Under the pieces are notes generated by a model. The model was given only the letters and a program-made list of their open reading frames with translations, searched no databases and was not told the DNA's origin. A stretch of 64,000 nt of DNA from Roseivirga spongicola (lineage in GTDB: Bacteria; Bacteroidota; Bacteroidia; Cytophagales; Cyclobacteriaceae): contig NZ_LRPC01000029.1 in assembly GCF_001592965.1 (NCBI RefSeq), forward strand, positions 124,001-188,000, read 5' to 3'. Numbering within the stretch: position 1 is the stretch's first letter; every line of letters starts with the position of its first letter. The position numbers and the translations under genes were made by a program. Below, one piece after another: positions 37,793 through 63,709 of this stretch.

Positions 37793-37869
37793 GGTCTGCT
37801 AGCTCAACTGGATAGAGCAACTGCCTTCTAAGCAGTAGGTTTCAGGTTCGAGTCCTGAGCGGATCACCA
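37793..37869 (+). tRNA. tRNA-Arg (anticodon UCU), integration target of the island
   Basis: Acceptor GGTCTGC pairs with GCGGATC (two wobble pairs), anticodon arm CTGC-CTTCTAA-GCAG carries TCT, and T arm is CAGG-TTCGAGT-CCTG. Discriminator A and encoded CCA are present. It decodes AGA. The last 26 bases recur at 57803-57828, so an integrative element has recombined at the 3' end and reconstituted the tRNA. Confidence 0.95.
37844..37869 (+). repeat. attL core: 3' end of tRNA-Arg
   Basis: The 26-bp sequence beginning AGGTTCGAGTCCTGAGC and ending GATCACCA is identical at 57803-57828. Outside these limits the two sites differ at once (C versus T on the left, A versus G on the right), so this is the full shared core. 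tRNA 3' ends are the classical attachment site of tyrosine recombinases. Confidence 0.93.
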
Positions 37870-38242: not shown

Positions 38243-40624
38243 ATGAAACACCTCTCTGAAACTGATATCTGTATGAATTACATCACTCCGGCAATTGCCA
38301 AAGCTGGATGGGATACTAAAAAGCAAGTTCGCAGAGAGGTCACGTTCACTGATGGCCGAATCAACGTTAGAGGTAATTCATACACTAGAGGTAAACGCAA
38401 ACGAGCGGACTACATCCTTTACCACATTACTGGCCACCCCATTGCAATCATTGAAGCGAAGGATGCTAAGCATTCCGTGGGCTCAGGAATGCAACAGGGA
38501 TTGGAATACTCTGAAATGCTCGATATTCCTTTTGTGTTTAGCTCAAATGGAAAAGGTTTCTTATTCCATGACAAGAGTGCTACTGATGGCATGACGGAGA
38601 AAGAGCTTGCTTTGGATGAGTTCCCCTCCCCGGAAGCACTATGGAACAGATATAGGCTTTATAAAGGAATTGAATCTCCCGAGGCTGAAAAAATAGTTAA
38701 TCAAGAATTTCATAAGGACGAGTCGGGCAAAGAACCAAGATACTATCAATCTATTGCCGTCAACAGAACGGTAGAAGCAGTAGCCAAAGGACAACAACGT
38801 ATCCTATTAGTAATGGCCACTGGAACTGGAAAGACTTATACAGCCTTTCAAATTGCCTGGAGATTGCACAAAGCAGGGGCAGTGAAGAGGATACTCTTTT
38901 TGGCTGATAGAAACATCCTGACCGACCAAACCAAGAGTGGGGATTTCAAACCCTTTGGTCAGGACATCATGACCAAAATTACTGGCCGCAAGATAGACAA
39001 GGCTTATCAAGTCTATTTTGGCATTTACCAGGGTTTGACTAGCCCAGAAGAAGCGAAGAAGGCCTTTAAAGAGTTCTCCTCTGACTTCTTTGACTGTATT
39101 ATTATTGATGAGTGCCACAGAGGAAGTGCCTCTGAAGCTTCTGCATGGAGAGAGATTTTAAGATACTTTGATAGTGCAACACACATTGGTTTGACAGCCA
39201 CGCCAAAAGAAACAGAGGATGTATCCAACATTGCTTACTTCGGTGAACCTCTTTACACCTACTCACTTAAGCAAGGTATTGACGATGGTTTCCTTGCTCC
39301 TTATAAAGTGATTAGGTTAGCCTTAAATATAGATGATGGTTACAGACCTGAAACTGGAAAAACTGATAAATACGGCCACCAAGTCAAGGATAGGGTTTAT
39401 AACACTAAAGACTATGACAAGAGCTTAGTCATTGATGAACGCACACAGACAGTTGCCAATAAGATAACTGAGTTCCTTCAACAAACCGACCCTTTCGCCA
39501 AAACGATTGTCTTCTGTATTGATACAGAGCATGCCGAGCGCATGAGACAAGCATTGATAAATGCCAATGTAGAATTAGTCAAAAAGCATCCTAATTATGT
39601 CGTTCGAATAACGGGTAATGATGAAGTTGGCAAGCATGAAATTGAGCGTTTCACGGACGTTGAAGAACGTTTCCCTGTCATTGCTACTACTTCGAAGCTC
39701 CTTACAACTGGAGTAGATACCAAAATGGTCAAGCTCATTGTTCTTGAAGCCAATATCGGTTCAATGACTGAGTTCAAGCAAATTGTTGGTAGAGGTACTC
39801 GAATAAGAGAACAAGACAACAAGGTATTCTTTACCATTATGGACTTCAGAAAGGCAACCAACCTTTTTGCAGACCCTGACTTTGATGGTGATCCTGTACA
39901 GATTTACACTACTGACGAAAACGGACCTGTTCTTCCGCCTGACAACGTCATAATAGATGGAGAAGGTGGCCCTGAAGGCACAGAAACAGATGTGCCTACC
40001 GGAGTAGACACAGGCTCTGGAGGCTTACCTCCTTTTGGACCTGGAAAAGGTGATGATGAACCTAGAAAGTACTACATCAAAGATGTGCCGGTTAGCATCG
40101 TAAATGAAAGGGTTCAATACCTCGATGGCCAAGGCCAGCTCATCACCGAAAGTTTAACTGACTATTCTCGTAAAAACATTAAAGAATGCTATGCCGACCT
40201 GAACACCTTTATCAATCGATGGACATCGGAAGAAAAGAAAGAGGCAATCATTAAAGAGCTATTAGAAGAAGGCGTATTTCTTGACGAGTTAAAAAAGGAA
40301 GTTGGTAAAGACATGGATACCTTTGACTTGATCGCTCATGTGGCATTTGACCAACCTGCACTGACTAGACAAGAACGAGCTAACAATGTGCGTAAACGCA
40401 ATTACTTTGGGAAGTATTCTGAAAAAGCTCAAAGCGTAATCAAAGCACTATTAGAAAAGTATGAGAATGAAGGCATCCTTTCCATTGAAGACATGGAAGT
40501 ATTAAAGGTTCAACCTTTTAATACTATGGGCTCGTTACCTCAGTTAGTGAAGTCTTTTGGAGGTAAGAACCAATACTTGGAAGCCTTAAAAGAATTGGAA
40601 ACCGAACTCTATAAATCAGCCTAA
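38243..40624 (+). CDS. hsdR: Type I restriction endonuclease subunit R (EcoEI-like, short form)
   Basis: I chose the ATG at 38243, because the family usually begins a few residues before 'LSETDICMNYITPAI' (an upstream ATG at 38216 adds nine residues). The N-terminal nuclease core has 'RADYIL' with Asp and 'IIEAKDAKH' with Glu-x-Lys (Glu about 71). The motor has Walker A 'MATGTGKTY' (about 192), 'IIDECHRGS' (DECH), 'HIGLTATPKE' and 'TTGVDTKMVKLIVLEANIGSMTEFKQIVGRGTRIRE'. The 793-residue length and family fit EcoEI-type R subunits. It cleaves DNA after ATP-driven translocation when HsdM/HsdS finds unmodified sites. A C-terminal helical part (about 660-790) binds the methylase core. It heads the ten-gene operon, with 2 bp to the next gene. 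Confidence 0.95.
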   Translation: MKHLSETDICMNYITPAIAKAGWDTKKQVRREVTFTDGRINVRGNSYTRGKRKRADYILYHITGHPIAIIEAKDAKHSVGSGMQQGLEYSEMLDIPFVFSSNGKGFLFHDKSATDGMTEKELALDEFPSPEALWNRYRLYKGIESPEAEKIVNQEFHKDESGKEPRYYQSIAVNRTVEAVAKGQQRILLVMATGTGKTYTAFQIAWRLHKAGAVKRILFLADRNILTDQTKSGDFKPFGQDIMTKITGRKIDKAYQVYFGIYQGLTSPEEAKKAFKEFSSDFFDCIIIDECHRGSASEASAWREILRYFDSATHIGLTATPKETEDVSNIAYFGEPLYTYSLKQGIDDGFLAPYKVIRLALNIDDGYRPETGKTDKYGHQVKDRVYNTKDYDKSLVIDERTQTVANKITEFLQQTDPFAKTIVFCIDTEHAERMRQALINANVELVKKHPNYVVRITGNDEVGKHEIERFTDVEERFPVIATTSKLLTTGVDTKMVKLIVLEANIGSMTEFKQIVGRGTRIREQDNKVFFTIMDFRKATNLFADPDFDGDPVQIYTTDENGPVLPPDNVIIDGEGGPEGTETDVPTGVDTGSGGLPPFGPGKGDDEPRKYYIKDVPVSIVNERVQYLDGQGQLITESLTDYSRKNIKECYADLNTFINRWTSEEKKEAIIKELLEEGVFLDELKKEVGKDMDTFDLIAHVAFDQPALTRQERANNVRKRNYFGKYSEKAQSVIKALLEKYENEGILSIEDMEVLKVQPFNTMGSLPQLVKSFGGKNQYLEALKELETELYKSA

Positions 40625-40626
40625 AA

Positions 40627-41832
40627 ATGGAAAGAAATGAAGTTGAGCAGAAATATGCTGAATTATTAAAAGATCCTTCATTTGACCAACTTGGCTTACT
40701 TCTGAAAGAGCCTAATATCTTCAGAGTACTTAGAGTTGAGCACAAAGAACTCAATCACTCAAATTTCATCAGTTGGCTTCTTGACCCCGCAGAGACACAT
40801 GGCATGAACGAAGTTTTCCTTTCTCGTTTTTTACAGGATGTGTTTGTTGACAATAGATCCTCTTCGTTCTCACTTATTGAATTAGCTAAAATTGATTTAA
40901 CAAATGTCGAAATCCGTAGAGAATGGAAGAAAATCGATATTCTAATTTTAACTGAAAAAATTGCGATTGCCATTGAAAACAAAGTTTGGTCGGGAGAGCA
41001 TAGTGAACAACTGAAAAGATATAAAGACACCATAGAAAAGGAGTTTCCCAAACACAGAAAGGCTTTTGTCTATTTGAGTCCTTATGGCATTGAGTCAAGC
41101 GAGGATGAGTTCTATGTCAACTATTCTTACGAAAGAATAAATGAAATAATCGAAAACATATTAGCTATTAGAGGCCACCAATTTGGAGAGTCTATAACCA
41201 ACTATTTGAAAGACTATTCTACCATTTTAAAGCAAAATATCATGTCAAATGATCAAGTAAACTTAATCGCAAAGCAGCTTTACAACAATCATAAAGAGTT
41301 ACTCGATTTCATTTATGATAACATACCAGATCCCTTTGATGAATTTCAAGAGAAACTAGATCAAATGGTCAAAAGTAAGGGTTGGAAAATTGGTTCAAAA
41401 AACAGGTATTATGTAAAGTTCTACACACCCGCTATGGAGGAGATGATCATGAAATATAAGAAAGCCAATGGATGGCCTGATAAAGAAGCATTCTTATTCG
41501 AATTGGGATTTTATTACGGAAAGAATATTTCATTCAATTCTTATGTATCTCCGCCTGTTCAATACTTTGACTATGCCGAAAGACTCACAGAAATACTTTC
41601 TGAAATACCCGATTCAAGGAAAAAATTGGGTCAAAAATGGAAAGCACATTTCAAAACAAGTTTAAAATGGCCTTTAGAAGAGAAAATGGAAAAATGGGAT
41701 GAGGACAGTGAAAAAGAGGTCGAGGCTTTTCTTGATAAAATTACCCCAATTGTAAATAAGGTTGAGGCTAAAATGCTAGAACATAGAGACGAATTAATAA
41801 AACTGAAAGAAGGAATAGAGCAGTATGACTAA
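40627..41832 (+). CDS. PD-(D/E)XK nuclease superfamily protein (PDDEXK_4 type)
   Basis: The 401-residue protein has 'LNHSNFISWLLDPAETHGMNEVFLSRFL', an acidic 'KIDILIL' (Asp) and 'IAIENKVWSGEHSEQLKRY' (Glu-x-Lys) in the order expected for a restriction-like catalytic core, with supporting Tyr and Gln residues. PDDEXK_4 proteins are found in defence loci. Here the gene sits between hsdR (2-bp gap) and hsdM (8-bp overlap), so it is an accessory member of the restriction operon. It might be a backup or conditional nuclease; this is an inference. The C-terminal half (residues 215-400) is helical and unassigned. Confidence 0.82.
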   Translation: MERNEVEQKYAELLKDPSFDQLGLLLKEPNIFRVLRVEHKELNHSNFISWLLDPAETHGMNEVFLSRFLQDVFVDNRSSSFSLIELAKIDLTNVEIRREWKKIDILILTEKIAIAIENKVWSGEHSEQLKRYKDTIEKEFPKHRKAFVYLSPYGIESSEDEFYVNYSYERINEIIENILAIRGHQFGESITNYLKDYSTILKQNIMSNDQVNLIAKQLYNNHKELLDFIYDNIPDPFDEFQEKLDQMVKSKGWKIGSKNRYYVKFYTPAMEEMIMKYKKANGWPDKEAFLFELGFYYGKNISFNSYVSPPVQYFDYAERLTEILSEIPDSRKKLGQKWKAHFKTSLKWPLEEKMEKWDEDSEKEVEAFLDKITPIVNKVEAKMLEHRDELIKLKEGIEQYD

Positions 41833-43264
41833 CGTAACCAGTACTTTAAAATCTATACAAGACATTATGCGGCAAGATGCCGGAGTGGATGGCGATGCAC
41901 AGCGCATCTCTCAACTGGTATGGATGATCTTCTTGAAAATATTTGACGACAAGGAGCAGGAATGGGAATTGCTTGAAGACAACTATCAAAGCCCTGTCCC
42001 GGAAAGACTCCGTTGGCAACAATGGGCAAGTGATGAAGAAGGTTTAACCGGTGATGAGCTGTTAGAGTTCGTTAACAACGACTTATTCAAAACCCTTAAA
42101 GAACTGAACGTCTCTCCTACTGAAGATCCTAAAGGATGGTTAGTGAAGTCTATTTTTGAGGACTCTTACAACTACATGAAGTCGGGTACTTTGATTCGCC
42201 AGATCGTCAATAAGATCAACCTGATCGACTTCAATGATCAAGAAGACCGACACCTCTTTAACGACATTTATGAGAAGATCTTAAAAGACCTGCAAAGCGC
42301 AGGCAATGCGGGCGAATACTACACGCCAAGGGCTGTAACCCAGTTTATGGTAGACATGACCAATCCTCGTTTGGGCCAAACCGTGCTTGACCCCGCTTGC
42401 GGAACTGGCGGCTTCCTCATTTGTGCTTTGGAGCATATCCGAAAAAACGATGTACAGACTGCCGAGCATAGACAGACCTTGCAAAACAGCATTCAAGGGG
42501 TTGAGAAAAAACCTATGCCTCATATGCTGGCCGCTACCAACCTGATCTTACATGATATTGAGCAGCCTATCATTAAGCATGACAACTACCTTGGAAGACC
42601 TTATAACGATTGGGAAAAGAAAGACCGGGTAGATATCATCTTGACCAACCCTCCTTTCGGAGGTACGGAGGAAGAAGGAACCGACACTAATTTCCCTTCT
42701 CGCTTTAGAACCAAGGAAACGGCTGACCTCTTCTTGGCCTTGATCATACGTTTATTGAAGGATGGTGGAAGATGTGCCGTAGTACTACCTGACGGCACTC
42801 TATTTGGTGAGGGTGTGAAGACCCGTATCAAAGAGGAGCTAATGGAGAAATGTAACCTCCACACCATTGTTAGGCTACCTAATGGTGTATTCAACCCTTA
42901 CACAGGCATCAAAACCAACTTACTTTTCTTTGAAAAGGGAGCGCCTACCAAAGAGACCTGGTACTTTGAGCATCCGTACCCTGAGGGAGTCAAAAGCTAT
43001 AACAAAGGCAAGCCGATTGACATCAAAGAGTTTGACCTTGAAAAAGCTTGGTGGGACAATAGAGAGGAGAATAAGTATGCTTGGAAGGTAGGTATAGACG
43101 AAATCAAGAAAAGAGGCTATAACCTCGATATCAAGAACCCTCACCAAGAAAGTGATGACCTAGCTAGCCCTGAAGAACTATTGACGCAATACAGAGCTAC
43201 GTCTGAGAAGATTACTAATCTGCAAAACGAGATTACCCAAGTATTAACCGAAGCCCTGAAATAA
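41825..43264 (+). CDS. hsdM: Type I DNA methyltransferase subunit M
   Basis: The 479-residue protein has an N-terminal helical domain ('TLKSIQDIMRQDAGVDGDAQRISQLVWMIFLKIFDD'), SAM-binding motif I 'DPACGTGGFL' and catalytic motif IV 'NPPFGG' (N-P-P-F, for adenine N6). 'GNAGEYYTPRAVTQFMVDM' is the usual HsdM element. It methylates adenine in the target set by HsdS and forms the M2S core. It overlaps the upstream nuclease gene by 8 bp and abuts hsdS (stop and start adjacent). Its base composition is richer in G+C than the genes downstream of 45.4 kb. Confidence 0.96.
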   Translation: MTNVTSTLKSIQDIMRQDAGVDGDAQRISQLVWMIFLKIFDDKEQEWELLEDNYQSPVPERLRWQQWASDEEGLTGDELLEFVNNDLFKTLKELNVSPTEDPKGWLVKSIFEDSYNYMKSGTLIRQIVNKINLIDFNDQEDRHLFNDIYEKILKDLQSAGNAGEYYTPRAVTQFMVDMTNPRLGQTVLDPACGTGGFLICALEHIRKNDVQTAEHRQTLQNSIQGVEKKPMPHMLAATNLILHDIEQPIIKHDNYLGRPYNDWEKKDRVDIILTNPPFGGTEEEGTDTNFPSRFRTKETADLFLALIIRLLKDGGRCAVVLPDGTLFGEGVKTRIKEELMEKCNLHTIVRLPNGVFNPYTGIKTNLLFFEKGAPTKETWYFEHPYPEGVKSYNKGKPIDIKEFDLEKAWWDNREENKYAWKVGIDEIKKRGYNLDIKNPHQESDDLASPEELLTQYRATSEKITNLQNEITQVLTEALK

Positions 43265-45028
43265 ATGAAGCTACTAGACCTATTTCAGGAGTTAACCATA
43301 CGTCCTAAGAATGCTGAGGAGCTCAAGGGCTTGATTTTGCAATTAGCCATTCAAGGTAGACTGACTAGGAACTGGAGAAAGCAAAATCCAAATGTAGAGC
43401 CCGCTTCTACCTTATTGAAGAAAATACAAAAGGAAAAAGCTCAACTCATTAGGGAAAAGAAAATAAAGAAGGAAAAGCTAGAGCCAGTTGATCTTGATGA
43501 GGTTTACTTCGAAGTCCCTGAAACCTGGGAGTGGGATCGCATTGGTCAAATTGGTTTTTTGTTTAATGGTAATAGCGTTAACAAGAGCATAAAAGAATCG
43601 AAGTATTCTGGACTTAGTGAAGGCTATCCTTATATAGCAACGAAAGATGTAGGCTATTTGAATGACACAATTGACTATAACAATGGGGTTAGGATTCCAT
43701 TTGATGAACCAAAGTTTAAAGTGGCAAGAAAAGGTACCGTTCTGATCTGCTCTGAAGGTGGCAGTGCCGGCAAGAAAATGGGGATTGTAGAAGAAGATGT
43801 TTGTTTTGGAAATAAACTTTTTGCTTTAGAACAATTCGGAAATATAGAGTCAGTTTATGTTCAAAGTTTATATGGTTCAGAATCTTTCCAAATTGCTTTT
43901 AGAGATAATATGACCGGAATAATTGGTGGCATTTCAAGAAACTCATTTGCCGCCTTATATATCCCCATCCCACCCCTAGAAGAACAAAAAGCCATAGTCG
44001 AAATTGTTGAGCAACTCTTTAAAGAAGTGGAGGCCTTAGAAGAGCAGACCAAATCCAGAGTACAACTTAAAGAAGATTTTGTCACCTCTGCCCTAGTCCA
44101 ATTAACCAATGAGGACACTAGCAAAAGCTGGAGTTTCTTACGACCACATTTCAATGAGTTCTTTACGGAGAAAAGTGGAGTCAAGAAGTTAAGAGAAAGC
44201 ATTCTGCAATTAGCTGTTCAAGGCAAGCTCACCAAGCATTGGAGGAAACGTCATCCTGAACTTGTTTCAGGACCTAACTCTGCCTCCACCCTATTAGCCA
44301 AGATCAAAGCTGAGAAAGAAGAGCTGATCAAAGCCAAAAAGATCAAAAAGGAAAAACCACTTCCTGAGATCACTGAGGAGGAGATTCCTTATGAATTGCC
44401 TGAGGGATGGGTTTGGAGTAGGTTGGGTGAAATAATAACTCTAAAGTCTGGACAAGACTTAAAACCACATGAATACTCCGACTCGGAAGTCATTGGTCTT
44501 CCTTACATAACAGGAGCAAGCAATCTTCAGAATGAAAGAGTCTTGATAAGTCGCTGGACGAATGCTCCTAGATCAATTGCGAATAAAGGAGATTTGCTTC
44601 TGACATGCAAAGGATCTGGTGTTGGTAAAATGGGATGGCTCGAAGAACCTGAGGCACACATTGCTAGACAAATTATGGCAATCAACACAATCTCCTCAGA
44701 GCTAATTTACATTAAGCTGTTCCTCGATATTAATCTGAGTTTTTTCAAAAATGCTGCTAATGGTTTAATCCCTGGAATTGATAGAAAAACGGTTCTTAAT
44801 ATGAGGCTCCCACTTCCAGGTTTAGAGGAGCAGCTAGCTATAATCCAAAAGGTCAATACCCTAATGGCCCTTTGTGACCAGCTAGAGCAAGCCATTGAAG
44901 AAGGAGAAGTACAAATTCAGCAATTAATGCAGAGTTGTTTGAAAGAGGTTTTTGAGGGGGCAGAAGAGGAAAGAGAAGAGTTATTGATAGCTGCTGAGCC
45001 AGAAGTTAAATACAATTCAAATGCTTGA
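43265..45028 (+). CDS. hsdS: Type I restriction specificity subunit S
   Basis: The 587-residue protein has two target-recognition domains, each preceded by a related 70-residue connector: 'AEELKGLILQLAIQGRLTRNWR' and 'VKKLRESILQLAVQGKLTKHWR', followed by 'LVDLDEVYFEVPETWEWDRIGQI' and 'ITEEEIPYELPEGWVWSRLGEI' regions. The two domains recognise the two halves of a bipartite DNA site. The second connector carries an inserted palindromic repeat (44254-44272) that reads 'HPELVSGP'. It overlaps the GIY-YIG gene by 8 bp. The exact recognition sequence cannot be read from sequence. Confidence 0.94.
   Translation: MKLLDLFQELTIRPKNAEELKGLILQLAIQGRLTRNWRKQNPNVEPASTLLKKIQKEKAQLIREKKIKKEKLEPVDLDEVYFEVPETWEWDRIGQIGFLFNGNSVNKSIKESKYSGLSEGYPYIATKDVGYLNDTIDYNNGVRIPFDEPKFKVARKGTVLICSEGGSAGKKMGIVEEDVCFGNKLFALEQFGNIESVYVQSLYGSESFQIAFRDNMTGIIGGISRNSFAALYIPIPPLEEQKAIVEIVEQLFKEVEALEEQTKSRVQLKEDFVTSALVQLTNEDTSKSWSFLRPHFNEFFTEKSGVKKLRESILQLAVQGKLTKHWRKRHPELVSGPNSASTLLAKIKAEKEELIKAKKIKKEKPLPEITEEEIPYELPEGWVWSRLGEIITLKSGQDLKPHEYSDSEVIGLPYITGASNLQNERVLISRWTNAPRSIANKGDLLLTCKGSGVGKMGWLEEPEAHIARQIMAINTISSELIYIKLFLDINLSFFKNAANGLIPGIDRKTVLNMRLPLPGLEEQLAIIQKVNTLMALCDQLEQAIEEGEVQIQQLMQSCLKEVFEGAEEEREELLIAAEPEVKYNSNA
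44254..44272. repeat. Short palindromic repeat inserted in hsdS
   Basis: TCCTGAA-CTTGT-TTCAGGA with 7-bp arms is the core of a known bacterial small palindromic element, which in this frame is read as the peptide HPELVSGP. The equivalent first connector of HsdS (NWRKQNPNVEPASTLL) lacks these residues, so the repeat entered the second connector and stayed in frame. It may be tolerated because connectors are flexible. Confidence 0.7.
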
Positions 45029-45446
45029 ATTCTTAGAAAGATATCAAGTAAAAGGTGAGTTCAGCTTAGGCTTGAACGAAAATCTCAATGATCAGTGTAA
45101 CGCACCTAGAAAGTGGAGCGGAATCTATTTAGTATTTGCAAAAAAGATTCAGTTGAACCACCTCATTTACATTGGCATATCAGGAAGAAAAGGCCCAAAT
45201 GGTAAAATCATTCACCGTTCGGATGGTATTGGAGGAAGAATAGTTAAGGGAAAACAATTCGGTGAGGCAAGAAGAAACTCATGGCAAAAACAAATGAGAC
45301 TAGCTGGCTTCGACAGAATTTATATCAAATGGTATGTCACCCACGGTGAAGTTGATATAGACTTCCCTCGAGAAATTGAACATGATTTACTTACCAAGTT
45401 TCATGAAGCGAGCGGTCAATTACCACTATGGAATAAATCTTTCTAG
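45021..45446 (+). CDS. GIY-YIG nuclease-superfamily protein
   Basis: The 141-residue protein has the GIY motif in 'KWSGIYLVFAKK' (34-36) and the YIG motif in 'HLIYIGISGRKG' (50-52), followed by an Arg-rich helix 'HRSDGIGGRI', and 'PREIEHDLLTKFHEA', where Glu118 or Glu120 could be the metal ligand. This is the single-domain GIY-YIG fold, a nicking/cleaving nuclease. It overlaps hsdS by 8 bp and is 2 bp upstream of the helicase gene, so it is part of the coupled operon. Its substrate (RNA or DNA) is unknown. Confidence 0.8.
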   Translation: MLEFLERYQVKGEFSLGLNENLNDQCNAPRKWSGIYLVFAKKIQLNHLIYIGISGRKGPNGKIIHRSDGIGGRIVKGKQFGEARRNSWQKQMRLAGFDRIYIKWYVTHGEVDIDFPREIEHDLLTKFHEASGQLPLWNKSF

Positions 45447-45448
45447 TA

Positions 45449-48400
45449 ATGGCAGTTGATAATTATTCCATAGAGCAATTTAGTCCTGGGACACTTATTG
45501 AAACAGAAGTAAAAAGGAAGATAGAACCGGGTGTTTTAGAGTTAGATGTAAGCAAAAATTTCACTTCTACAATCTCAATTCTCGACCTTGACTGGAACCT
45601 CACAAGAGCTGAAATTCAATTTAAGTCTATAAAGGAAGGAGATAGAATTAAGGCAGCTGTATATGAAATTACCCCTAATGATAATCATATTAGGTTTAGT
45701 GTCCGCCATCTCCTTGATAAGCCAATTGAGACAGACTATTGGAAGAATCTTAAACTTGGTGATATAATTTCTGGCAAATCCGTTGATGTCCTTTCAACGG
45801 GGCAAGTAGTTGAACTCCAAAATGATTTAACTGGTATAATTTTCGATCACTCTTATCAAGGTGATGATTTTCAATTAGTTACAAAAGACCGAGAAACTAA
45901 TCTACTCATTCTTTCAAAGCCAGTACAGACTAGTCAAGAAAATGACCTTGAAGGAAGCAATTTACCACAAAGTAGTATTGTAATCAAAGATGAAGATTTC
46001 AGGTCTTTTGAAAGTTTCACTAAATCCATTTACAATGATTTTGCAGGCCCAGATGAGTTAGAATTTCTAGAATCAGCTTTTGAAGCAGAACCACAATTGT
46101 TTTCAAAAGAGTTAGTCACTAATTCAAGGTTATACCTTTCATTCGGATTAAACCACTCTGCTTGGGACAACTTTCAGGCACAAGTAATTCCCAGTATTCT
46201 CAACAAGGCGAATGATGAGGAAAAAATAATTAAAGAAGCCTTCGAACATATTGAGAAACAATCTTTTTGGATAAATCTTTCCAAGCGTAATGACAAAGAG
46301 TTCTTTACAATTTATAATGACCAGCTCAACTTTCATGGAGTTATTAATGAATTTGATGAAGAATCATGTCAATTTTTCATTTTCAATGCATCATTTGGAA
46401 GAAAGGATACAAATGCCTCTAGAGGTAAACAAATAAGTTCAAAAATCGGGTCATACGTACTTGTTGACGGAATTTCTTTACTAAGTCCAACAGACAATGT
46501 TCCAATCGGTGAATCAAAGAAACAGGTCTCTATTCTTAGACGGTTACAATTAAAAAGTCAGGCTTCAATAATTTTTACTGAGTTAAAAATGAAGACTGGA
46601 GAGATCATACGAAGTGAGGGAAAGTCTCTTCAAATATTTGATAAATTTTTAGAATACCAGATAGACCATGCCAAAAAGAATCTGCCTCCTCCATTCCCAT
46701 TATCTGACATTCAAAGAACACAAGGTGGTGAAAAAATATCATGGATTCTTCCCCCAGAGGTTGATGATTATTTCGGAAAAGATGAAGAGGGAGAAATTTA
46801 CCTTGACCTCCGTGAAAGAATAAAGTCCAACAAAAAGGATAGGACTTATGAGTATAAAAAGTTCGGCTCTGCAAAAGCTAGACAATTTGGCGAAGTTTGG
46901 TTATTAGAAATTGAAGACTCTTTGCCTCTAAAAGAGGTTAAAGAGTTATATATCCAGAAAAAAGCTTCACTCAGGCAGTACCAAGTACAAAGAGAAATTA
47001 TTAGAGATTTCTTCGATAAAAAATTAAAACTTGATCATGTCGAAAACTTATTGGTAAACCCAAAAAGAATTAAAACTCCTTTTGAATCGCAAGCTGAATT
47101 ATTCAATGAAAACCTGCGGAAAACAGAAGACCAAAAAACTGATAATCGACAAGTAAAAGCTGTTAGAAAAGCGATTGGTAACAAAGACATTTTCTTAATA
47201 CAGGGACCACCTGGTACTGGTAAAACAACCGTCATTACAGAAGTTGTTAGGCAACTTGTGAGTCAAGGAGAGAAGGTCTTGGTGACAAGTCAAACCCATA
47301 TTGCGGTAGACAATGTACTTGAAAAATTGACTGAAGAAAAGTCACTGTCTTTATTAAGACTTGGAGTTAAAAACAAGATAAGAGAGAGCCTACAACAACA
47401 TCATCCTAACGAGCAAATCAAAGCCTATACTAAAGACTTTCTTAGATTCATCGACACCCAAATTGCAATTATTGAATTATGGGAATTAAAGAAAAGTGAT
47501 GAAGAAATTAGGGGTACCGTTAAAGTCCTAAGAGAAGAGTACTCACCAGTAGTACGGGATAAATTGGCAGGGTTCAATTTTGACCTAGTTGATTTATTGA
47601 AGTCAAATTCACTAATAAAAACAAAGAGTATTTTCGATACACTAAACAAATGGAAAACTAGTGTTGAATCAGGACTTGAAATAATAATAGCACCAATCCT
47701 TTATAGCAGTGTAGATGTTGTTTTTGCGACATGTATTGGTATTAAACTCGATCAAGTATTCAATGAAATACAGTTTCAATTTGATACTGTTATAATAGAT
47801 GAAGCAGGTAAGGCCAATCTTGCTGAGTCTTTGGTCGCTATTTCTATGGCCAAGAAGATCATTCTAGTGGGTGATCAAAAACAGTTACCGCCATATATAG
47901 AAAGTGACCTCTTAGACCCAAAAGAAGAGAATAGTTTCCCAAAATCTAAGTATGGTTTCAGGTATGGAAAAGAAGAAATTGAGTATGCACTAAAAACTTC
48001 ATTCTTTGAATTTCTAACGAAAAGAATAGACGCTGGTCAATTTCCATTGACTAATAAAGAGATGTTAAACTATCAACATCGCATGCACCCGAACATTGGT
48101 AGATTTGTTAGTGAATCCTTTTATGACGGAGATGTTAAAATGGGTTCGAGTACACATTTGAATGAATTAGCCTTACCTGCGCCTTTTAATAAAGAAATCA
48201 TATTTTTCAGTACGGGAGCTTTTGAAAATCCTTATGAGAGGCAGAAAGGATTTTCCATTATCAATCAGACCGAAGCTCAAATTCTTGTACAAGATATACT
48301 TCCTAAACTCCTAGAATTTGGCGTAAAGGATAGAGAAGTTGCGGTCATAGCCCCTTACAAATCTCAAGTAGCTCTGATTAAAACAGAATTGGAGGCCTCC

Positions 48401-49579
48401 GCTAAGCACTCTTTATCCAATATTGAAGTGGCTACATTGGACTCTTTTCAGGGTATGGAGTTCGATATCATTGTATTTAGTTTTACACGAAGTGCTAGCC
48501 CAGATCAAGAAAAAAAGAAAGTAGGTTTCCTTGATGATGCAAGAAGATTAAATGTTGCGTTCAGTAGAGCCAAAAAGAAACTTATTTTAATAGGAAATAG
48601 TCGAACACTTACTCAACAGTCAAGCCATTATGATGGCTTATTCCCTTTCACAAAATTATTTCAAAAGCTCGTAGAACTAAGCAATGATGAGAATATTGGG
48701 GCTTTTTATGAAACTAATGATGATGATTATGACTTTAAAAGCCCACATGAGAGATTCCAAGAAAAATATCCCGTAGGGTCCAATGTAAAGGGTGTTGTAA
48801 AAGCGATTGTGCCTTATGGAGCCTTTGTCACTATAGATGGATTGGATGGCTTAGTTCATAAAACAGACATTTCACAACACTTTGTGGCTGATGTGAATGA
48901 TCATCTAGAAGTTGATCAAGAAGTTGACGTTAAGGTTCTCAAAATCAATATTGAGAATAAACAAATAAGTTTGGGAATCAAACAAACAAAAGAAAATGTC
49001 AAGGCACGAACTTCAGAATCAAGAGCAGCCGGAGATTACTTGTTATACGAGGAGTTCAAAAAGAAATTTCCAGTGGGTTCTAAGGTTAGGGGAAAAATTA
49101 AGATAATTAAAGACTACGGTATGTTTATAACCTCCCATGGTCTTGACGGACTCTTGCATATTTCAAATATAGGCGATGACAAGAACCTAGACTTGTCTCA
49201 AGATTTCAAGGTAAAGGATGAAATTCAAGTTGTCCTTCTAGATTATAATGATGAGCTAAAGAAATTCCAACTCGGGCTAAAGCAAATTAAAGAAATTGAA
49301 AAATGGGAGGTCTTTAAAGAAGCAAACCCTGCTCAAACAATCATTAAAACCACCATTAAAGATGTTGCACCTTTTGGAATATTTGTAACATTTGATTCAG
49401 GCTTTTCAGGCTTAGTGCACATTTCCCAATTGAATCCCAAAAAGCGGAATGAAATCAAAAAGCACTATTCTAAAGGAGACCCTTTAGACGTCATGATTCT
49501 CAGCTACAAAGATCAAAAAAGACAAATAGAGCTATCTGAAACTATGGCATTATTAAAGAACAAAGGCAGGCATGTTTAG
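45449..49579 (+). CDS. Superfamily 1 helicase flanked by S1-type RNA-binding domains
   Basis: The 1376-residue protein has two S1-like beta-barrel modules at the N-terminus (about 12-80 and 95-150, e.g. 'LGDIISGKSVDVLSTGQVVELQNDLTGII'), a long linker, and an Upf1/Dna2-type (COG1112) helicase: Walker A 'GPPGTGKTT' (586-594), motif II 'IIDEAG' (784-785), 'VGDQKQLPP', and C-terminal 'SFQGMEFDIIVFSFTRSA' and 'RLNVAFSRAKKKLILIG'. Three S1 domains close the protein (about 1110-1180, 1210-1280, 1295-1365; each with 'GxxVxGxVxxIxxYGxFV...GLxHxS'). S1 domains bind single-stranded RNA, so an RNA or RNA-DNA substrate is likely. It overlaps the next gene by 8 bp. Fusion of S1 domains to a restriction-linked helicase is unusual. 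Confidence 0.88.
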   Translation: MAVDNYSIEQFSPGTLIETEVKRKIEPGVLELDVSKNFTSTISILDLDWNLTRAEIQFKSIKEGDRIKAAVYEITPNDNHIRFSVRHLLDKPIETDYWKNLKLGDIISGKSVDVLSTGQVVELQNDLTGIIFDHSYQGDDFQLVTKDRETNLLILSKPVQTSQENDLEGSNLPQSSIVIKDEDFRSFESFTKSIYNDFAGPDELEFLESAFEAEPQLFSKELVTNSRLYLSFGLNHSAWDNFQAQVIPSILNKANDEEKIIKEAFEHIEKQSFWINLSKRNDKEFFTIYNDQLNFHGVINEFDEESCQFFIFNASFGRKDTNASRGKQISSKIGSYVLVDGISLLSPTDNVPIGESKKQVSILRRLQLKSQASIIFTELKMKTGEIIRSEGKSLQIFDKFLEYQIDHAKKNLPPPFPLSDIQRTQGGEKISWILPPEVDDYFGKDEEGEIYLDLRERIKSNKKDRTYEYKKFGSAKARQFGEVWLLEIEDSLPLKEVKELYIQKKASLRQYQVQREIIRDFFDKKLKLDHVENLLVNPKRIKTPFESQAELFNENLRKTEDQKTDNRQVKAVRKAIGNKDIFLIQGPPGTGKTTVITEVVRQLVSQGEKVLVTSQTHIAVDNVLEKLTEEKSLSLLRLGVKNKIRESLQQHHPNEQIKAYTKDFLRFIDTQIAIIELWELKKSDEEIRGTVKVLREEYSPVVRDKLAGFNFDLVDLLKSNSLIKTKSIFDTLNKWKTSVESGLEIIIAPILYSSVDVVFATCIGIKLDQVFNEIQFQFDTVIIDEAGKANLAESLVAISMAKKIILVGDQKQLPPYIESDLLDPKEENSFPKSKYGFRYGKEEIEYALKTSFFEFLTKRIDAGQFPLTNKEMLNYQHRMHPNIGRFVSESFYDGDVKMGSSTHLNELALPAPFNKEIIFFSTGAFENPYERQKGFSIINQTEAQILVQDILPKLLEFGVKDREVAVIAPYKSQVALIKTELEASAKHSLSNIEVATLDSFQGMEFDIIVFSFTRSASPDQEKKKVGFLDDARRLNVAFSRAKKKLILIGNSRTLTQQSSHYDGLFPFTKLFQKLVELSNDENIGAFYETNDDDYDFKSPHERFQEKYPVGSNVKGVVKAIVPYGAFVTIDGLDGLVHKTDISQHFVADVNDHLEVDQEVDVKVLKINIENKQISLGIKQTKENVKARTSESRAAGDYLLYEEFKKKFPVGSKVRGKIKIIKDYGMFITSHGLDGLLHISNIGDDKNLDLSQDFKVKDEIQVVLLDYNDELKKFQLGLKQIKEIEKWEVFKEANPAQTIIKTTIKDVAPFGIFVTFDSGFSGLVHISQLNPKKRNEIKKHYSKGDPLDVMILSYKDQKRQIELSETMALLKNKGRHV

Positions 49580-50873
49580 AATAACTTTAGACATAGAGCA
49601 GCATTACAACACTTTGCTAGAAAATAATCAAGGTTATTTGCGTGCATTGGCTTTCCTTCAATACCCAATCTATTGTATTCATGCTACAATTTTAGACTCT
49701 ACACCGGATGAACTTGAAATACTAGACAAAGCCATCCTTGACCTAGTCAAAGATAATCCAACCGATGCTAATTCAATCTCAACTATTCTGGGCGTTTCAA
49801 AAAGAGCTATAGAAAATAGAATAATAAAGTTAGAGAATGAAGAGTTAGTAGAAAATGGAAAAAGTATAACTACCAAAGGCAGGCTATTTATTACCGAAGG
49901 CTCTGAAAAACGGTATAGTAGAAAAGATATTGATATTTACCTAGACGGAACCAATAATCGGCCGGTTTCCAAGAATTTAGCGTGGTACTATAGTTCTCAT
50001 TTTATAAGTGAAGAATATTATAATTTTTTCACTAAGGATGACGGACAGGTGATTATTCAAAGACCTTTTGCCCCTGACCTTGTACATGAACCTATTTCTG
50101 AAGAAAAAATCAAAACCTCCATTGAATCACTGAATGAAGATCAAAAGTCTAGATTTGGTATACCTATAGGGCTTGAAAAGATAGAATCAATGTCTTACAC
50201 ATTATTGACGTTACCGTTATTGGTATCTCTTTCTGACGATGGAAAACCAGTTAAACAGATCACTAATGGCCTAAGTCTTTCTGGTGAAAACGAACCAATA
50301 ACTAAAATAAAGAAGATTTTAGAGGCAAAGATTCAAGGTTTGCTTGTACAACTAAACCCTTCAAAAAATCACGGCCCCACGATCGGTACAAATTGGTTTG
50401 AAGCTGATAACAATGACTTTGGGAATAACAGACTTTTCTATATCACAGAAGATGAGTTTAAAGAATTTATTGAGATTGAATATAGTCTAACTGGCTTAGA
50501 GAATGAAAATATAATATGCGATAAAAATGAGCTTGTATTAGTCATTACTAAAAAACTACTGGATCGCACGAGAGACAAAAAGTCTATAATCATAAACCTA
50601 CTTCGAGGTCGAGACTATATAAGTAGAAATCCTCTTCATGGTGTTTGGAAGTTATTTATAACCTTCAAAACTACTGATGTGCTTGTTCAAGAAATTTGTG
50701 AATTATATGCACTATGCAAAGAATATGATTTCTCCCCACCGTTGGAAGAGGTATTAACTATGAAAAACAACATGAAAGGGAACTTCAGGAAAAATCTAAT
50801 AGATCTAGAACTGAATGGCATTCTAGAAAAAATTGATATGAAGCTTTTTATGAATGATCCAAGCGAGGCATGA
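49572..50873 (+). CDS. Winged-helix protein of unknown function in the CARF/restriction operon
   Basis: The 433-residue protein has a clear winged helix-turn-helix at about residues 48-105 ('LEILDKAILDLVKDNPTDANSISTILGVSKRAIENRIIKLENEELV'). The rest has no motif that I recognise; it is predicted mixed alpha/beta, with 'LLTLPLLVSLSDDGKPV' and a C-terminal helical section. It overlaps the helicase gene by 8 bp and the PLD gene by 4 bp (ATGA). The wHTH could read a nucleic acid (sensor or regulator) for the helicase/PLD pair. I found no nucleotide cyclase or polymerase motif in it. Confidence 0.72.
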   Translation: MFRITLDIEQHYNTLLENNQGYLRALAFLQYPIYCIHATILDSTPDELEILDKAILDLVKDNPTDANSISTILGVSKRAIENRIIKLENEELVENGKSITTKGRLFITEGSEKRYSRKDIDIYLDGTNNRPVSKNLAWYYSSHFISEEYYNFFTKDDGQVIIQRPFAPDLVHEPISEEKIKTSIESLNEDQKSRFGIPIGLEKIESMSYTLLTLPLLVSLSDDGKPVKQITNGLSLSGENEPITKIKKILEAKIQGLLVQLNPSKNHGPTIGTNWFEADNNDFGNNRLFYITEDEFKEFIEIEYSLTGLENENIICDKNELVLVITKKLLDRTRDKKSIIINLLRGRDYISRNPLHGVWKLFITFKTTDVLVQEICELYALCKEYDFSPPLEEVLTMKNNMKGNFRKNLIDLELNGILEKIDMKLFMNDPSEA

Positions 50874-52288
50874 AGATTAAAAAAGACACCGATACTTTTA
50901 ATGATTGGCTTTTTGTCAAGAAAAACAAATCCTTCCAAGCTTGGACGTCAAACAATGAACTACCTATTACGCTAGAAGGACAAACTGAATTAAAGAATAT
51001 TATACTTGATCTCATTGAGATAGCAGAGGTATGCATAAAACTTTGTTCCTTCATACTAACAGATTCAGAAATCATTAATGCTCTACTCAATAAATTAAGA
51101 ACAACAGACTGTTGTATTTTCATCCTCACACAGCTTGACTCCTCCAAATTCTCTGCGAGCCTCTTAACAGAAGAAGAACTTCAAGAAAACACAAATGAAA
51201 CTCATTTAAACGCTATCAACTCACTATTCAATGAAGGGGCTCATATAAGGGCAGCTGAGAATGTCCATGCTAAATTCATCATTGTTGATAATAAAAAAAC
51301 TTTAGTCACCTCAGCCAATATTACAACTCCCTCATTAAATAAAAATCCTGAGTCAGGTGTTTATTTGCAGCAAAACTCTTCGGATGTAGCATCAAAACTT
51401 TTTGACTCCATATATCGCTATGGAACAACCTATAATCAATTTGTAAAGTCAGGAACTGGAAGAAAGTTTATTAAGCATTCGAACTTTTCACTCTCATCAG
51501 AATGGCTTCCCAATGACCCGAAAGACTTTTTATATACACTTGGGAACTTAAACAATTCGATTTATTCTAGTCTAATAGAATTAATTGAAGAGGCTCAGAA
51601 AGAAATAATTATGTCCTCTTATTGCATCATTGGATTAGAAAATTTAACTGAATTTATGGACTCAATAAAGAGAGCCATTAATCGAGGAGTCGATATACAA
51701 ATCTTCTGCAGAGGCATGAACTATAGACCATTGCACATGCTTGGTTGTATTGAATTTGCTGAATTAGGGTGCAAAATTTATGGTGACGTTTTTAACCATT
51801 CTAAAGGACTTTCTAACGAACAAAGTGGGATGATTTTTACTGCCAATATAGACGGTAGACATGGATTAAAAAGTGGTTTTGAAGTCGGTGCAAAATTGAA
51901 CGGACCTCAAAATGATGCGCTAAGATCCTTTATGAAATGGCAGGTTGCGAATGCGCCTTATCAATTAGAAAAAGGAACTATCAGGAAGCACTACTTTGCT
52001 TCTTATGAGTGGTATGTAAAGGAAAAGGGATTAAAATGCCCTCCTCCATTGAAAAAAATAAGCTTTGACTGCAAAAACTTAAATAAGTCCCAGAGCGATC
52101 ATTTAGCAGAAAAACCTTTCTATGGCTTTTATAAAGGCGGAAACTTAATGGCCCTCGATATTAACGGAGGTGCTTTTGAAACAAACTTTGAAAATGGAAT
52201 GATTAAATTGAATCAGGCACAAAGTTCTTACAAAGGTTTTGAAAAATACTTGATTAGATACGAAGAAATGAGTTTTCATTATGAATGA
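50870..52288 (+). CDS. Phospholipase D-fold (PLDc) nuclease-like protein
   Basis: The 472-residue protein contains the PLD signature 'VHAKFIIVDNKKTLVTSANIT' (H-x-K-x4-D) in the first half. The second half has 'FNHSKGLSNEQSGMIFTANIDGRHG', in which H-x-K is kept but the Asp is replaced, so one catalytic half may be weakened or the two differ. PLD-fold proteins in phage defence (e.g. DISARM DrmC, Mokosh) act as nucleases. It overlaps both neighbours (4 bp upstream, 8 bp downstream). It is probably the effector nuclease of the helicase module. Confidence 0.8.
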   Translation: MKIKKDTDTFNDWLFVKKNKSFQAWTSNNELPITLEGQTELKNIILDLIEIAEVCIKLCSFILTDSEIINALLNKLRTTDCCIFILTQLDSSKFSASLLTEEELQENTNETHLNAINSLFNEGAHIRAAENVHAKFIIVDNKKTLVTSANITTPSLNKNPESGVYLQQNSSDVASKLFDSIYRYGTTYNQFVKSGTGRKFIKHSNFSLSSEWLPNDPKDFLYTLGNLNNSIYSSLIELIEEAQKEIIMSSYCIIGLENLTEFMDSIKRAINRGVDIQIFCRGMNYRPLHMLGCIEFAELGCKIYGDVFNHSKGLSNEQSGMIFTANIDGRHGLKSGFEVGAKLNGPQNDALRSFMKWQVANAPYQLEKGTIRKHYFASYEWYVKEKGLKCPPPLKKISFDCKNLNKSQSDHLAEKPFYGFYKGGNLMALDINGGAFETNFENGMIKLNQAQSSYKGFEKYLIRYEEMSFHYE

Positions 52289-52859
52289 GATAAGATATAC
52301 CGAAAACTGGATCCAACTGTCAAGATCAGGTGAGTTCGAAGAGGCACAAGAGTTGTATTTCTCCAAACTTCTGCCCGAAATAATAGAGTCTTTTCAAAAT
52401 AGATTTCAAGATTCCTTTAATAACGAAGATATGTTGATTTCCATTCTAGGCTTCTCTCCTGAACCGATAATCCTTACCGCCAAGGCTATGAAGCCTTCAA
52501 AACATGTAATTGTCACCACAGGTGAAAACAAAGCCGTGGAAGAAGTTCTTCAAAAGTATTTAGAAGACGGATATAGCATAATTAGACTGAATGACGAGTC
52601 ATTTTTAGAAATGTACAAGGCGCTAAAGGAACAATTAATCTTAAATAATCACTCTAAGATTGTGGTAGATATTACCGGTGGCAAAAAGTCAATGGTTGCC
52701 TCAGCATCAATTTTTGCAAAAGATTATGCCTGTAAAATTGTTTATGTAGACTTTACCGAATACCTACAGGAGTTACGAAAACCAAAACCAGGAACTGAAG
52801 TGTTGAATATCGTTTACAACCCGAATACAGATCAGCCAGAGATCAAATTATCGGAATGA
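52281..52859 (+). CDS. Stand-alone CARF-domain protein
   Basis: The 192-residue protein has the Rossmann-like features of CRISPR-associated Rossmann fold (CARF) domains: 'LISILGFSPEPIILTAKAM' (strand 1 and loop), 'KHVIVTTGENKAVEEVL', the ligand-loop signature 'VVDITGGKKSMVASA' (130-140) and 'LRKPKPGTE' (170-173), a motif seen in CARF proteins such as Csm6/Csx1 relatives. CARF domains bind cyclic oligoadenylates in type III CRISPR, where a Cas10 makes them. It has no effector domain. It overlaps the next CARF-nuclease gene by 4 bp (52856-52859), so they probably form a pair. It may be a sensor or a ring nuclease that degrades the signal. Confidence 0.82.
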   Translation: MNEIRYTENWIQLSRSGEFEEAQELYFSKLLPEIIESFQNRFQDSFNNEDMLISILGFSPEPIILTAKAMKPSKHVIVTTGENKAVEEVLQKYLEDGYSIIRLNDESFLEMYKALKEQLILNNHSKIVVDITGGKKSMVASASIFAKDYACKIVYVDFTEYLQELRKPKPGTEVLNIVYNPNTDQPEIKLSE

Positions 52860-53974
52860 AAAACACTCAAATAGCTTTACTAGGAGGTCAAGTTATACCT
52901 ATCTATTGGGGGATTAAAGAAAGAAACCCTGACCACGTCCATTTAATTTACACCGAACAACTCAAAGAAAAGCTGAAGTTAATTCAGGAAAGCTTTAGTT
53001 TTATCTCTTTTGATTTACACAAAGTAGACCCCTACGACTTTGATAATATTTCATCGGTTATAGAGAAAATTGTGTTTGAAAACGAGAAAGATGAATTTGA
53101 ACTAAATCTGACGGGAGGTACTAAAATTATGACATTAGCAGCTCATAATGTTTTCAAGGATTTAGGATTGGAATCTTTTTATCTCGATCAGAAAAAGGAG
53201 TTTTTCTTCTTTAAGAAGAAAGAATATATACCATTGAAGAGTGATATCAAGATTGAAACTTTTCTTCGATTATCGGGTCATTCAAAGATCAACAAGACTT
53301 CATTATCTTCAATTACTGAAAGTGAGTTTGATATTGCTTTCCGAATGTTGGATTTGATCAAAAAGAAAGGCATTAGTAGGTTGTTTAGCAGGGTTGCCTC
53401 TAGAATAAAGGATTACTCGAAACCCTACAATATCAATTTGGATAATGGAGTAGAATTAACGTGGAGAAATGAGCTCCTGAAAATTAAATCACCTGAGTTC
53501 AATGAACACTTGAACCATAAAAAAGCTTTCGAAATATGTTTTTCCGGTCTTTGGTGGGAATTAGTGGTTGCCAAAACGGTTCGAAGCTGGAGTGCAAAAA
53601 AACAATTATTTTTGGGAGTAGAACTTTTGGTCAACTCTGATCAAGAAAAGGCAAAGAATGAGATTGATATAATCTTGAGTACTGGTAAAAGTATGATATT
53701 CTTAGAATGTAAAGCCGGTGATGTAAAACAGGAATCAGTAAATAAGATTAGAGCTGTAAAGAAGTTATATGGTGGCATTTCCACTAAGTCCATTCTCGTC
53801 TGTTACAGACAGCCAAGAAAAGATATACTTGAAAAATGTAAAGATCTTGATATAGAGGTTTTTGCCCTTCAAAAATCTACTAAGTCAAAAAATCAAGGAG
53901 ATTTTATTCCTTTATCAAGCATTACAACACTTAATAGCAAGCTTACCGAATTAGTGCATAAAATTGAAGTTTAG
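52856..53974 (+). CDS. CARF plus PD-(D/E)XK nuclease, Card1/Can2-like (DUF1887 type)
   Basis: The 372-residue protein has an N-terminal CARF domain with 'NLTGGTKIM' (84-92) and a C-terminal restriction-type nuclease with Asp271 in 'NEIDIILSTGK', Glu284 and Lys286 in 'FLECKAGDVKQ'. This matches Card1/Can2, in which cyclic tetra-adenylate bound to CARF activates a nuclease that cuts single-stranded DNA and RNA, causing dormancy. The usual partner Cas10 is not seen. It is the last gene of the ten-gene operon, with its start overlapping the CARF gene by 4 bp. The frame stays open after its TAG for 79 more codons (53975-54214). Confidence 0.88.
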   Translation: MKNTQIALLGGQVIPIYWGIKERNPDHVHLIYTEQLKEKLKLIQESFSFISFDLHKVDPYDFDNISSVIEKIVFENEKDEFELNLTGGTKIMTLAAHNVFKDLGLESFYLDQKKEFFFFKKKEYIPLKSDIKIETFLRLSGHSKINKTSLSSITESEFDIAFRMLDLIKKKGISRLFSRVASRIKDYSKPYNINLDNGVELTWRNELLKIKSPEFNEHLNHKKAFEICFSGLWWELVVAKTVRSWSAKKQLFLGVELLVNSDQEKAKNEIDIILSTGKSMIFLECKAGDVKQESVNKIRAVKKLYGGISTKSILVCYRQPRKDILEKCKDLDIEVFALQKSTKSKNQGDFIPLSSITTLNSKLTELVHKIEV

Positions 53975-55470: not shown

Positions 55471-55699
55471 CGATTAACCAATTTCTTGAGAATAGCACCC
55501 GGCCATACATTCTTATTGAACGTATATCACCGGCTGCTACCCAACGATCGAAATTAGTCTGTGATGTTCTGCAAAATTCTGCAGCCTCTTCACGAGTAAG
55601 AAAGTGCTGAGGTTCTTTTTGATTTGAAAGCTTTTGGTCTACTACATCTTCAACCTGCTTTCTGATTTCTACGAGTAACATAGCATTGATCTGCTTCAT
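55436..55699 (-). CDS. Small helix-turn-helix protein (excisionase-like)
   Basis: The 87-residue protein has a HTH_17-like domain: 'FLTREEAAEFCRTSQTNFDRWVAAGDIRSIRMYGRVLFSRNWLIDDLQ', where 'TREEAAEFCRTS' is the MerR/excisionase-type turn and 'GRVLFSR' the recognition strand. Such proteins are recombination directionality factors or repressors in tyrosine-recombinase elements. It overlaps the downstream Rep-like gene by 35 bp, which suggests coupled translation. It lies between the integrase-side genes and the Rep-like gene. Confidence 0.75.
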   Translation of the reverse strand: MKQINAMLLVEIRKQVEDVVDQKLSNQKEPQHFLTREEAAEFCRTSQTNFDRWVAAGDIRSIRMYGRVLFSRNWLIDDLQKMRSTTV

Positions 55700-57802: not shown

Positions 57803-57828
57803 AGGTTCGAGTCCTGAGCGGATCACCA
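57803..57828. repeat. attR core: duplicated tRNA-Arg 3' end
   Basis: The 26 bp are identical to 37844-37869 but have no tRNA body in front, so this is the displaced chromosomal copy on the far side of the island. Right of it the native tRNA terminator follows. Confidence 0.93.
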
Positions 57829-62965: not shown

Positions 62966-62969
62966 TCAT

Positions 62970-63086: not shown

Positions 63087-63099
63087 CTTTCCCGTTTAC

Positions 63100-63504: not shown

Positions 63505-63534
63505 TATGTAATTTAATTAATTGTCTTGACTGTC

Positions 63535-63706: not shown

Positions 63707-63709
63707 GTA

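Follow-up and report, generated by a model that had tools for sequence, protein, structure and literature searches.

Two apparent defence modules in a tRNA-Arg island of Roseivirga spongicola: a type I restriction–modification operon and a five-gene helicase–PLD–CARF cassette

UPF1-like helicases are typically encoded with downstream effectors that join a winged helix-turn-helix (wHTH) domain to a nuclease, an arrangement named CoCoNuT (coiled-coil nuclease tandem) in PMC11090510, a paper cited here and below for a part of its text. According to that part, the Type III-C effector has two phospholipase D (PLD) domains, CoCoNuT loci include restriction–modification (RM) genes in long one-strand superoperons, and genes for CARF (CRISPR-associated Rossmann fold) proteins lie alongside, most of them closest to RtcR; a legend places two CARF domains and a D-ExK nuclease motif in the III-A extensions. 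CARF proteins outside CRISPR are already known, and the question at stake is their activation, for which the CoCoNuT authors offer a proposal (PMC11090510). Here we describe a 64,000-nucleotide stretch of the Roseivirga spongicola genome (contig NZ_LRPC01000029.1, positions 124,001 to 188,000; hereafter the window), in which ten open reading frames, all on the + strand, span positions 38243–53974 (Table 1). The explanation we prefer, at a probability of roughly 0.6, is that these genes are two separate defence modules back to back in one island within a tRNA-Arg gene. The first is an operon for type I RM; the second is a cassette of five genes (helicase, wHTH protein, PLD nuclease, stand-alone CARF protein and CARF nuclease) that would combine an RNA-cutting core with a ligand-gated CARF layer.

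Comparison of loci shows conservation of the last five genes as a unit, not of all ten. In a genome of another genus of the same family (G259), the five cassette genes lie together in the same order, with 4-bp overlaps at three of the four junctions and direct adjacency at the remaining one, and the IMG/VR contig 3300024996_000127 carries the same five in order, with frames that overlap by 1 or 4 bp throughout. A third relative (G117) begins in a frame that, by eye against the G259 protein, resembles the PLD C-terminus and continues with the CARF and CARF nuclease genes; this locus is truncated, with almost no upstream sequence. Identities to the window proteins are 40–42% for the helicase, 31–32% for the wHTH protein and 40–41% for the PLD protein (G259 and IMG/VR), and 56–58% for the stand-alone CARF and 35–39% for the CARF nuclease across all three relatives (57–58% and 35% for G259 and IMG/VR). 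None of the five RM-block proteins of the window has a tblastn match (E 1e-4) in 38 kb of G259 (L006 and L007) or in the IMG/VR sequence (L023 and L051). Because the cassette recurs without these RM genes and the G+C content at third codon positions (GC3) differs, with a mean of 0.398 for the five RM-block genes against 0.305 for the cassette, we treat the two as separate units sharing an island.

The sequence-only reading of this DNA had proposed a single composite system, and a ten-gene composite with restriction, helicase/PLD and CARF nuclease as obligate successive layers does draw support from the layout: the successive junctions measure +2, −8, 0, −8, +2, −8, −4, −8 and −4 bp, just the tight spacing that reading had reported, with 2 bp between the GIY-YIG-like and helicase genes, and RM genes also occur in the one-strand superoperons of CoCoNuTs (PMC11090510, in part). 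From the spacing, the ten genes likely share one predicted transcript; promoter and terminator scans gave signals not above those of shuffled sequence. Against the composite stand the two relatives with upstream sequence, in both of which the CARF genes occur without these RM genes, the first half of the outcome named beforehand as speaking against it; two relatives of the GIY-YIG-like gene (G133 and G106), which have no homologues of these RM genes or of the cassette nearby in the 10–15 kb fetched; and the GC3 shift between the blocks, albeit not a clean one. The ten-gene order was not seen in any other locus fetched, no other strains of the same species being among them. We therefore regard the composite as improbable. 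The locus is still well described as a defence locus, and the idea of successive layers, given up across all ten genes, may apply within the five-gene unit alone, with helicase and PLD first and CARF nuclease second.

Among genome samples that overlap and are each drawn from a larger group, the CARF nuclease matched 3 of 291 genomes of the order and the stand-alone CARF 2 of 295 of the family, the own genome included in each count, and the wHTH protein matched the own genome alone among 395 genomes of the phylum. The helicase matched 5 of 296 genomes of the phylum, of which the four others are helicase-only and belong to one genus (g193), while a CARF profile matched 7 of 395, namely the own genome and six weak matches in frames of 478–564 aa; the flanks (~1.5 kb) of these four helicase and six CARF matches hold no other cassette gene. 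A genome-contig scan with the helicase gave one weak helicase-only relative (L004), and in the family of G117 1 of 19 genomes matched, G117 itself. Viral contigs yielded no relative when scanned with the stand-alone CARF alone, and further scans of them returned one and the same relative, the IMG/VR contig; phages had no match to the CARF nuclease. On plasmids, the wHTH protein found no match, the stand-alone CARF found 11 records from Thermus/Meiothermus that carry a Csm6 or CARF protein annotation, and the helicase found 502 records, all with coverage of the query below 80%.

The domain names given by the sequence-only reading held firmly for eight of the ten proteins by Pfam, PADLOC and NCBIfam, whereas the wHTH assignment is weak and the GIY-YIG assignment was made by eye only. 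As that reading had proposed, the superfamily 1 (SF1) helicase carries S1 domains of the RNA-binding type, in three stretches; its N-terminus is S1-like by eye, its relatives in the PDB are ribosomal S1, SMUBP-2 and UPF1, and residues 249–1079 match the PADLOC MkoA model PDLC03920 at E = 3.7e-123. The wHTH protein has a Pfam match below cut-off and weak PADLOC matches to MkoB (E = 9e-8) and to CARF3/Csa3 of wHTH type; in its AlphaFold2 model (mean predicted local distance difference test, pLDDT, 58.6) the best Foldseek match is a wHTH at E = 0.025, none reaching E 0.001 in either library. A cyclase hidden in its C-terminus was considered and dropped on that same weak model, as were matches to small alarmone synthetase 1 (E 0.2–0.3, probability 0.2–0.3, root-mean-square deviation >11 Å). 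Residues ~293–420 of this protein are modelled with fair confidence and have no significant fold match. The PLD protein is closest to DrmC in PADLOC (E = 8.9e-22; MkoB 2.7e-10) and matches the NCBIfam DrmC model at E = 1.8e-20 with 73.5 bits, below the cut-off of 133; weak PDB matches are a virion nicking-joining enzyme (E = 1e-4) and the endonuclease 1byr (E = 5.5e-4). The stand-alone CARF matches Csm6 chains in the PDB at E = 3e-9 (5fsh is T. thermophilus Csm6), and the CARF nuclease matches 8bao (E = 5e-47), Can2 (7bdv, E = 2e-19) and also Card1. Profile comparison of the window CARF with the RtcR-like CARF gave no signal (hhalign probability 0.2%).

Catalytic and predicted ligand-contact motifs are intact in the cassette. 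Walker A and B motifs of the helicase (GPPGTGKT, DEAG) and the PLD motifs HxKx4D and HxKx4E are kept in 3 of 3 sequences, the nuclease motif NEID-x12-ECK in 4 of 4. The lysine motif after strand 4 reads GGKKSM in all four stand-alone CARFs and GGTK or SGTK in all four CARF nucleases (GGTKIM in the window copy).

These matches bear on whether the cassette is a plain Mokosh system with two CARF genes as passengers. The MkoA match of the helicase and the weaker MkoB matches of the wHTH and PLD proteins argue for it. The behaviour of the CARF genes argues the other way: no cassette gene is as well conserved as the stand-alone CARF (56–58%, against 31–42% for the others), it keeps the same place with overlapping frames in four of four loci, and in the plasmid cousins, too, the PLD is followed by a CARF protein, confirmed in two of them. 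Moreover, type I MkoA carries a kinase domain, and the best 25 of 28 Pfam matches of our helicase include none. Passenger CARF genes on a plain Mokosh system thus seem decidedly unlikely.

The plasmid cousins were found through the PLD protein, which has four plasmid relatives, all with neighbourhoods examined. In three (Pontibrevibacter, V. rumoiensis and V. aerogenes) the genes encode a helicase, a hypothetical protein (X), a PLD protein and a sigma54-interacting protein; the fourth (Klebsiella) has the PLD and sigma54 proteins, with an IS21 transposase upstream. The sigma54 proteins of Pontibrevibacter and V. rumoiensis belong to RtcR_PspF1 CARF_AAA_HTH (E = 9e-126 and 6e-207); a CARF is confirmed in these two, the ones scanned. 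The order of UPF1-like helicase, middle protein, PLD and CARF/sigma54 is that of the cassette, and the PLDs are homologous to the window PLD (profile E = 5e-23 and 5e-21); unlike in the cassette, however, these loci carry the CARF as a fusion with a sigma54 activator, without the lysine, and their helicases have no S1 match. This likeness suggests that a CARF sensor became joined to a UPF1-like helicase/PLD core, or stayed joined to it, on more than one occasion. On the V. aerogenes plasmid (L065 9418–11422), cas2 and a very long cas1 gene adjoin the locus. There were 15 plasmid CARF matches, with neighbourhoods examined for two (H1 and H2). CARF-PDDEXK relatives on Caballeronia and Klebsiella plasmids (L027 and L028) lie within VWA/PP2C/kinase/AAA-helicase clusters that resemble the CoCoNuT III-A extensions as given in part of PMC11090510. 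The Klebsiella CARF-PDDEXK protein has no match to the nuclease motif pattern used.

What might switch on the CARF layer was approached through the genome's cyclases and CRISPR content. The sequence-only reading had noted that CARF proteins occur here with neither Cas10 nor a CRISPR array, and this is borne out: none of the ten proteins is a Cas10, no exact 22-mer occurs three times in the window, and the whole genome has no match to the Cas10 palm domain (PF22335), for which a control search was positive in 5 of 14 genomes. The SMODS family PF18144 (the nucleotidyltransferase of cyclic oligonucleotide-based antiphage signalling) likewise has no match in the genome (control positive in 3 of 14; other cyclases, including mCpol, were not searched for). 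Elsewhere in the genome there is a CRISPR-Cas locus of Cas9 type, with Cas1, a 1458-aa protein matching RuvC_III, HNH_4 and Cas9-BH, and an array in which a 24-mer occurs 19 times, 66 bp apart among the matches listed. It is highly improbable that the CARF genes are leftover type III CRISPR accessories working with a Cas10 acquired elsewhere. Both match CRISPR ancillary effector clades and keep the lysine after strand 4; yet the genome is without a Cas10-palm match, the sole Cas1 locus found is of Cas9 type, and at the loci seen the two CARF genes keep company with the helicase.

Since neither Cas10-palm nor SMODS is matched, we weakly favour a ligand that arises in infected cells, either as a product of nucleic-acid cleavage by the core itself or from a synthase not yet recognised. 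A related possibility, which we hold open but doubtful, is that the CARFs sense RNA ends (2′,3′-cyclic phosphates or linear oligonucleotides) and not cyclic oligoadenylate. The core's own RNA cleavage could supply such a ligand, the lack of Cas10-palm and SMODS matches fits it, and an RtcR_PspF1 CARF stands at the same place in two plasmid cousins; in the part of PMC11090510 used here, RNA-end sensing is proposed for RtcR-like CARFs near CoCoNuTs, where most associated CARFs are closest to RtcR. The CARF sequences point the other way. According to a portion of PMC4012209, most RtcR-like CARFs have no positively charged residue following strand 4, and their ligands may be different ones, whereas the window CARFs keep the lysine; the two sigma54 cousins scanned read SPGTPAM at this place, without it. 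PLD nucleases, moreover, are not known to leave cyclic phosphates.

Under the two-module explanation, module A would be a common type I RM system of the EcoAI family, accompanied by genes for a PD-(D/E)XK accessory nuclease and a GIY-YIG-like protein. In module B the helicase, wHTH and PLD proteins would form a Mokosh- or CnuHE-like core, possibly as a complex. The most likely substrate of this core, which would load on it and cut it, is RNA of phage origin or intermediates that contain RNA. An oligonucleotide ligand would then switch on the Card1/Can2-type CARF nuclease as a second layer, and the stand-alone Csm6-type CARF may bind or destroy that ligand and so set a threshold. A bolder form, cyclase-free CARF immunity, seems to us rather unlikely: the core itself would make the activating oligonucleotide, the stand-alone CARF would serve as timer or ring nuclease, and the plasmid CARF/sigma54 loci would be sisters in which a similar signal drives transcription. 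The question of CARF activation becomes testable with a compact mobile cassette whose motifs are intact and whose host genome has neither a Cas10-palm nor a SMODS match.

Several observations weigh against two modules with a ligand-gated second. In the window a gap of 2 bp separates the RM genes from the cassette, so that the two are probably co-expressed and could cooperate, and two RM-block genes have GC3 values (0.341 and 0.352) within the cassette range of 0.289–0.373, so the break in composition is not clean. Complete cassettes number three, and since the G259 and IMG/VR copies are closely related (68–90% for genes 1–4, 54% for gene 5) the independent sample is small. The IMG/VR cassette region also holds other restriction- or defence-like genes: a D12 adenine methyltransferase lies ~4.7 kb upstream, and between it and the cassette the opposite strand encodes an AAA_21 ATPase together with an AbiEii/DUF6088 pair. 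The PLD is nearer to DrmC models than to MkoB, the predicted model of the stand-alone CARF is too poor for use (pLDDT 42), and the Cas10-palm and SMODS searches of the genome identified no ligand source. Finally, the wHTH protein shows no significant similarity to CnuE-like proteins or to the X proteins of the plasmids (hhalign probability 5–10%); shuffle z reaches 3.6 for the window protein against one CnuE-like protein, but the z values of the two relatives overlap those of controls.

The mobile context is plain from the tRNA-Arg gene, whose terminal 26 nt recur to bound an island of ~20 kb with integrase-like and HTH_17 genes inside its right end; the integrase matches a SAM-like domain, and the catalytic-domain model is not reached at E 0.001. 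Three of 18 matching relatives (L053–L055) were taken for comparison downstream of the same tRNA: G256, G856 and G894 have no nucleotide or translated match to the island in 8.5, 15.7 and 3.6 kb, respectively (the G894 contig ends just beyond the tRNA), and a translated search of them with the island and its right flank gave nothing at E 1e-5. Beside the IMG/VR cassette, too, there is an HTH_17 gene, here with a tyrosine integrase that is complete. Right of attR, a second type I HsdR (EcoR124_C type; 58682–61534) and an Abi_2 gene (61795–62694) follow, so defence genes continue beyond the island; at 62968–63880, direct repeats, some diverged and some near-identical (141 bp, 96%; 48 bp in five copies), surround a small gene (63100–63504). 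Just downstream of the G259 cassette, on the same strand, genes for a protein of the metallo-beta-lactamase fold and for one of 1516 aa that has no Pfam match (L006 13285–18919) are perhaps another defence system, and near that cassette lies a SusD/TonB pair, which fits Bacteroidota.

Table 1. Coordinates of the features discussed (window numbering unless a locus is named)
Feature	Coordinates	Strand	Basis
tRNA-Arg (tct); 3′ end is the left att (attachment) site of the island	37793..37869	+	ARAGORN, direct repeat D9
attL, 26-nt AGGTTCGAGTCCTGAGCGGATCACCA	37844..37869	+	exact repeat with 57803–57828
hsdR, EcoAI family type I restriction subunit	38243..40624	+	NF046051, 1152 bits, cut-off 550
PD-(D/E)XK accessory nuclease	40627..41832	+	PDDEXK_4 (Pfam), PDC-S26 (PADLOC)
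hsdM methyltransferase	41825..43264	+	N6_Mtase E = 1e-74
hsdS specificity subunit	43265..45028	+	Methylase_S, two stretches
Small GIY-YIG-like protein	45021..45446	+	motifs by eye
Cassette gene 1: UPF1-like SF1 helicase, three C-terminal S1 domains	45449..49579	+	AAA_11/AAA_12/S1
Cassette gene 2: wHTH protein, uncharacterised C-terminal region	49572..50873	+	weak matches
Cassette gene 3: PLD-family nuclease, two HxK motifs	50870..52288	+	PLDc_2 E = 2e-22, two stretches
Cassette gene 4: stand-alone Csm6-type CARF	52281..52859	+	CARF_Card1, CARF1 families (PADLOC)
Cassette gene 5: CARF-PDDEXK nuclease, Card1/Can2 type	52856..53974	+	CARF_Card1 + Card1_endonuc; PDLC01890 E = 9e-108
HTH_17 excisionase-like gene of island	55436..55699	−	below Pfam cut-off
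Tyrosine-recombinase-like integrase of island	56407..57675	−	Phage_int_SAM_5 E = 8.5e-9
attR, second copy of the 26-nt tRNA-Arg end	57803..57828	+	exact repeat
AbiEii-type gene with DUF6088 partner, AAA_21 ATPase, D12 adenine methyltransferase	L023 916–2524; L051 4440–7626		upstream of IMG/VR cassette

Compared with described systems, the first block is a type I RM system in which HsdR, HsdM and HsdS are encoded together as in the EcoAI family; it differs in a PDDEXK_4 gene within, and a GIY-YIG-like gene after, the hsd genes, the latter protein having no family match at E 0.01 in Pfam, PADLOC or NCBIfam. The cassette also shares single parts with systems that it otherwise departs from. DrmC of DISARM (defence island system associated with restriction–modification) is the best PADLOC and NCBIfam match of the PLD protein, whereas the other DISARM genes are absent here and the match falls below the NCBIfam cut-off. 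With the Card1/Can2 ancillaries of type III CRISPR it shares a CARF joined to a Card1-type nuclease, in a genome that differs in having no Cas10 by PF22335.

The cassette core resembles Mokosh and, as far as the part of PMC11090510 used here describes it, the CoCoNuT arrangement of helicase and wHTH effector. The likeness to Mokosh lies in the MkoA-type helicase and in wHTH and PLD proteins that match parts of one MkoB model; the MkoB-like parts are split over two genes here, and the cassette adds two CARF genes. With the CoCoNuT types that combine cnuHE and CARF (Type II, III-A and III-C) it shares a UPF1-like SF1 helicase with OB-type domains and CARF proteins in the operon, and it may share a downstream wHTH-linked nuclease, the helicase and PLD being matched and the wHTH protein showing no significant CnuE-like similarity. 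It differs in that its S1 domains are C-terminal, that wHTH and PLD are separate genes, that its CARFs are of Csm6 and Card1 type where CoCoNuT CARFs are mostly RtcR-like, and that the cassette genes have no McrB/McrC or TerY-P match among the matches listed; the same holds for an McrB-like GTPase (CnuB) and McrC (CnuC) across the ten window proteins. Because PMC11090510, even in part, already covers helicase with wHTH-nuclease, the two-PLD form, CARF and RM genes, the kind of system is known. For a form that is free of McrBC, has S1 domains, encodes wHTH and PLD in separate genes and pairs a Csm6-type CARF with a Card1-type nuclease, the portions of the open-licence literature covered gave no description, and it is by this combination that the cassette stands apart from its closest described relatives.

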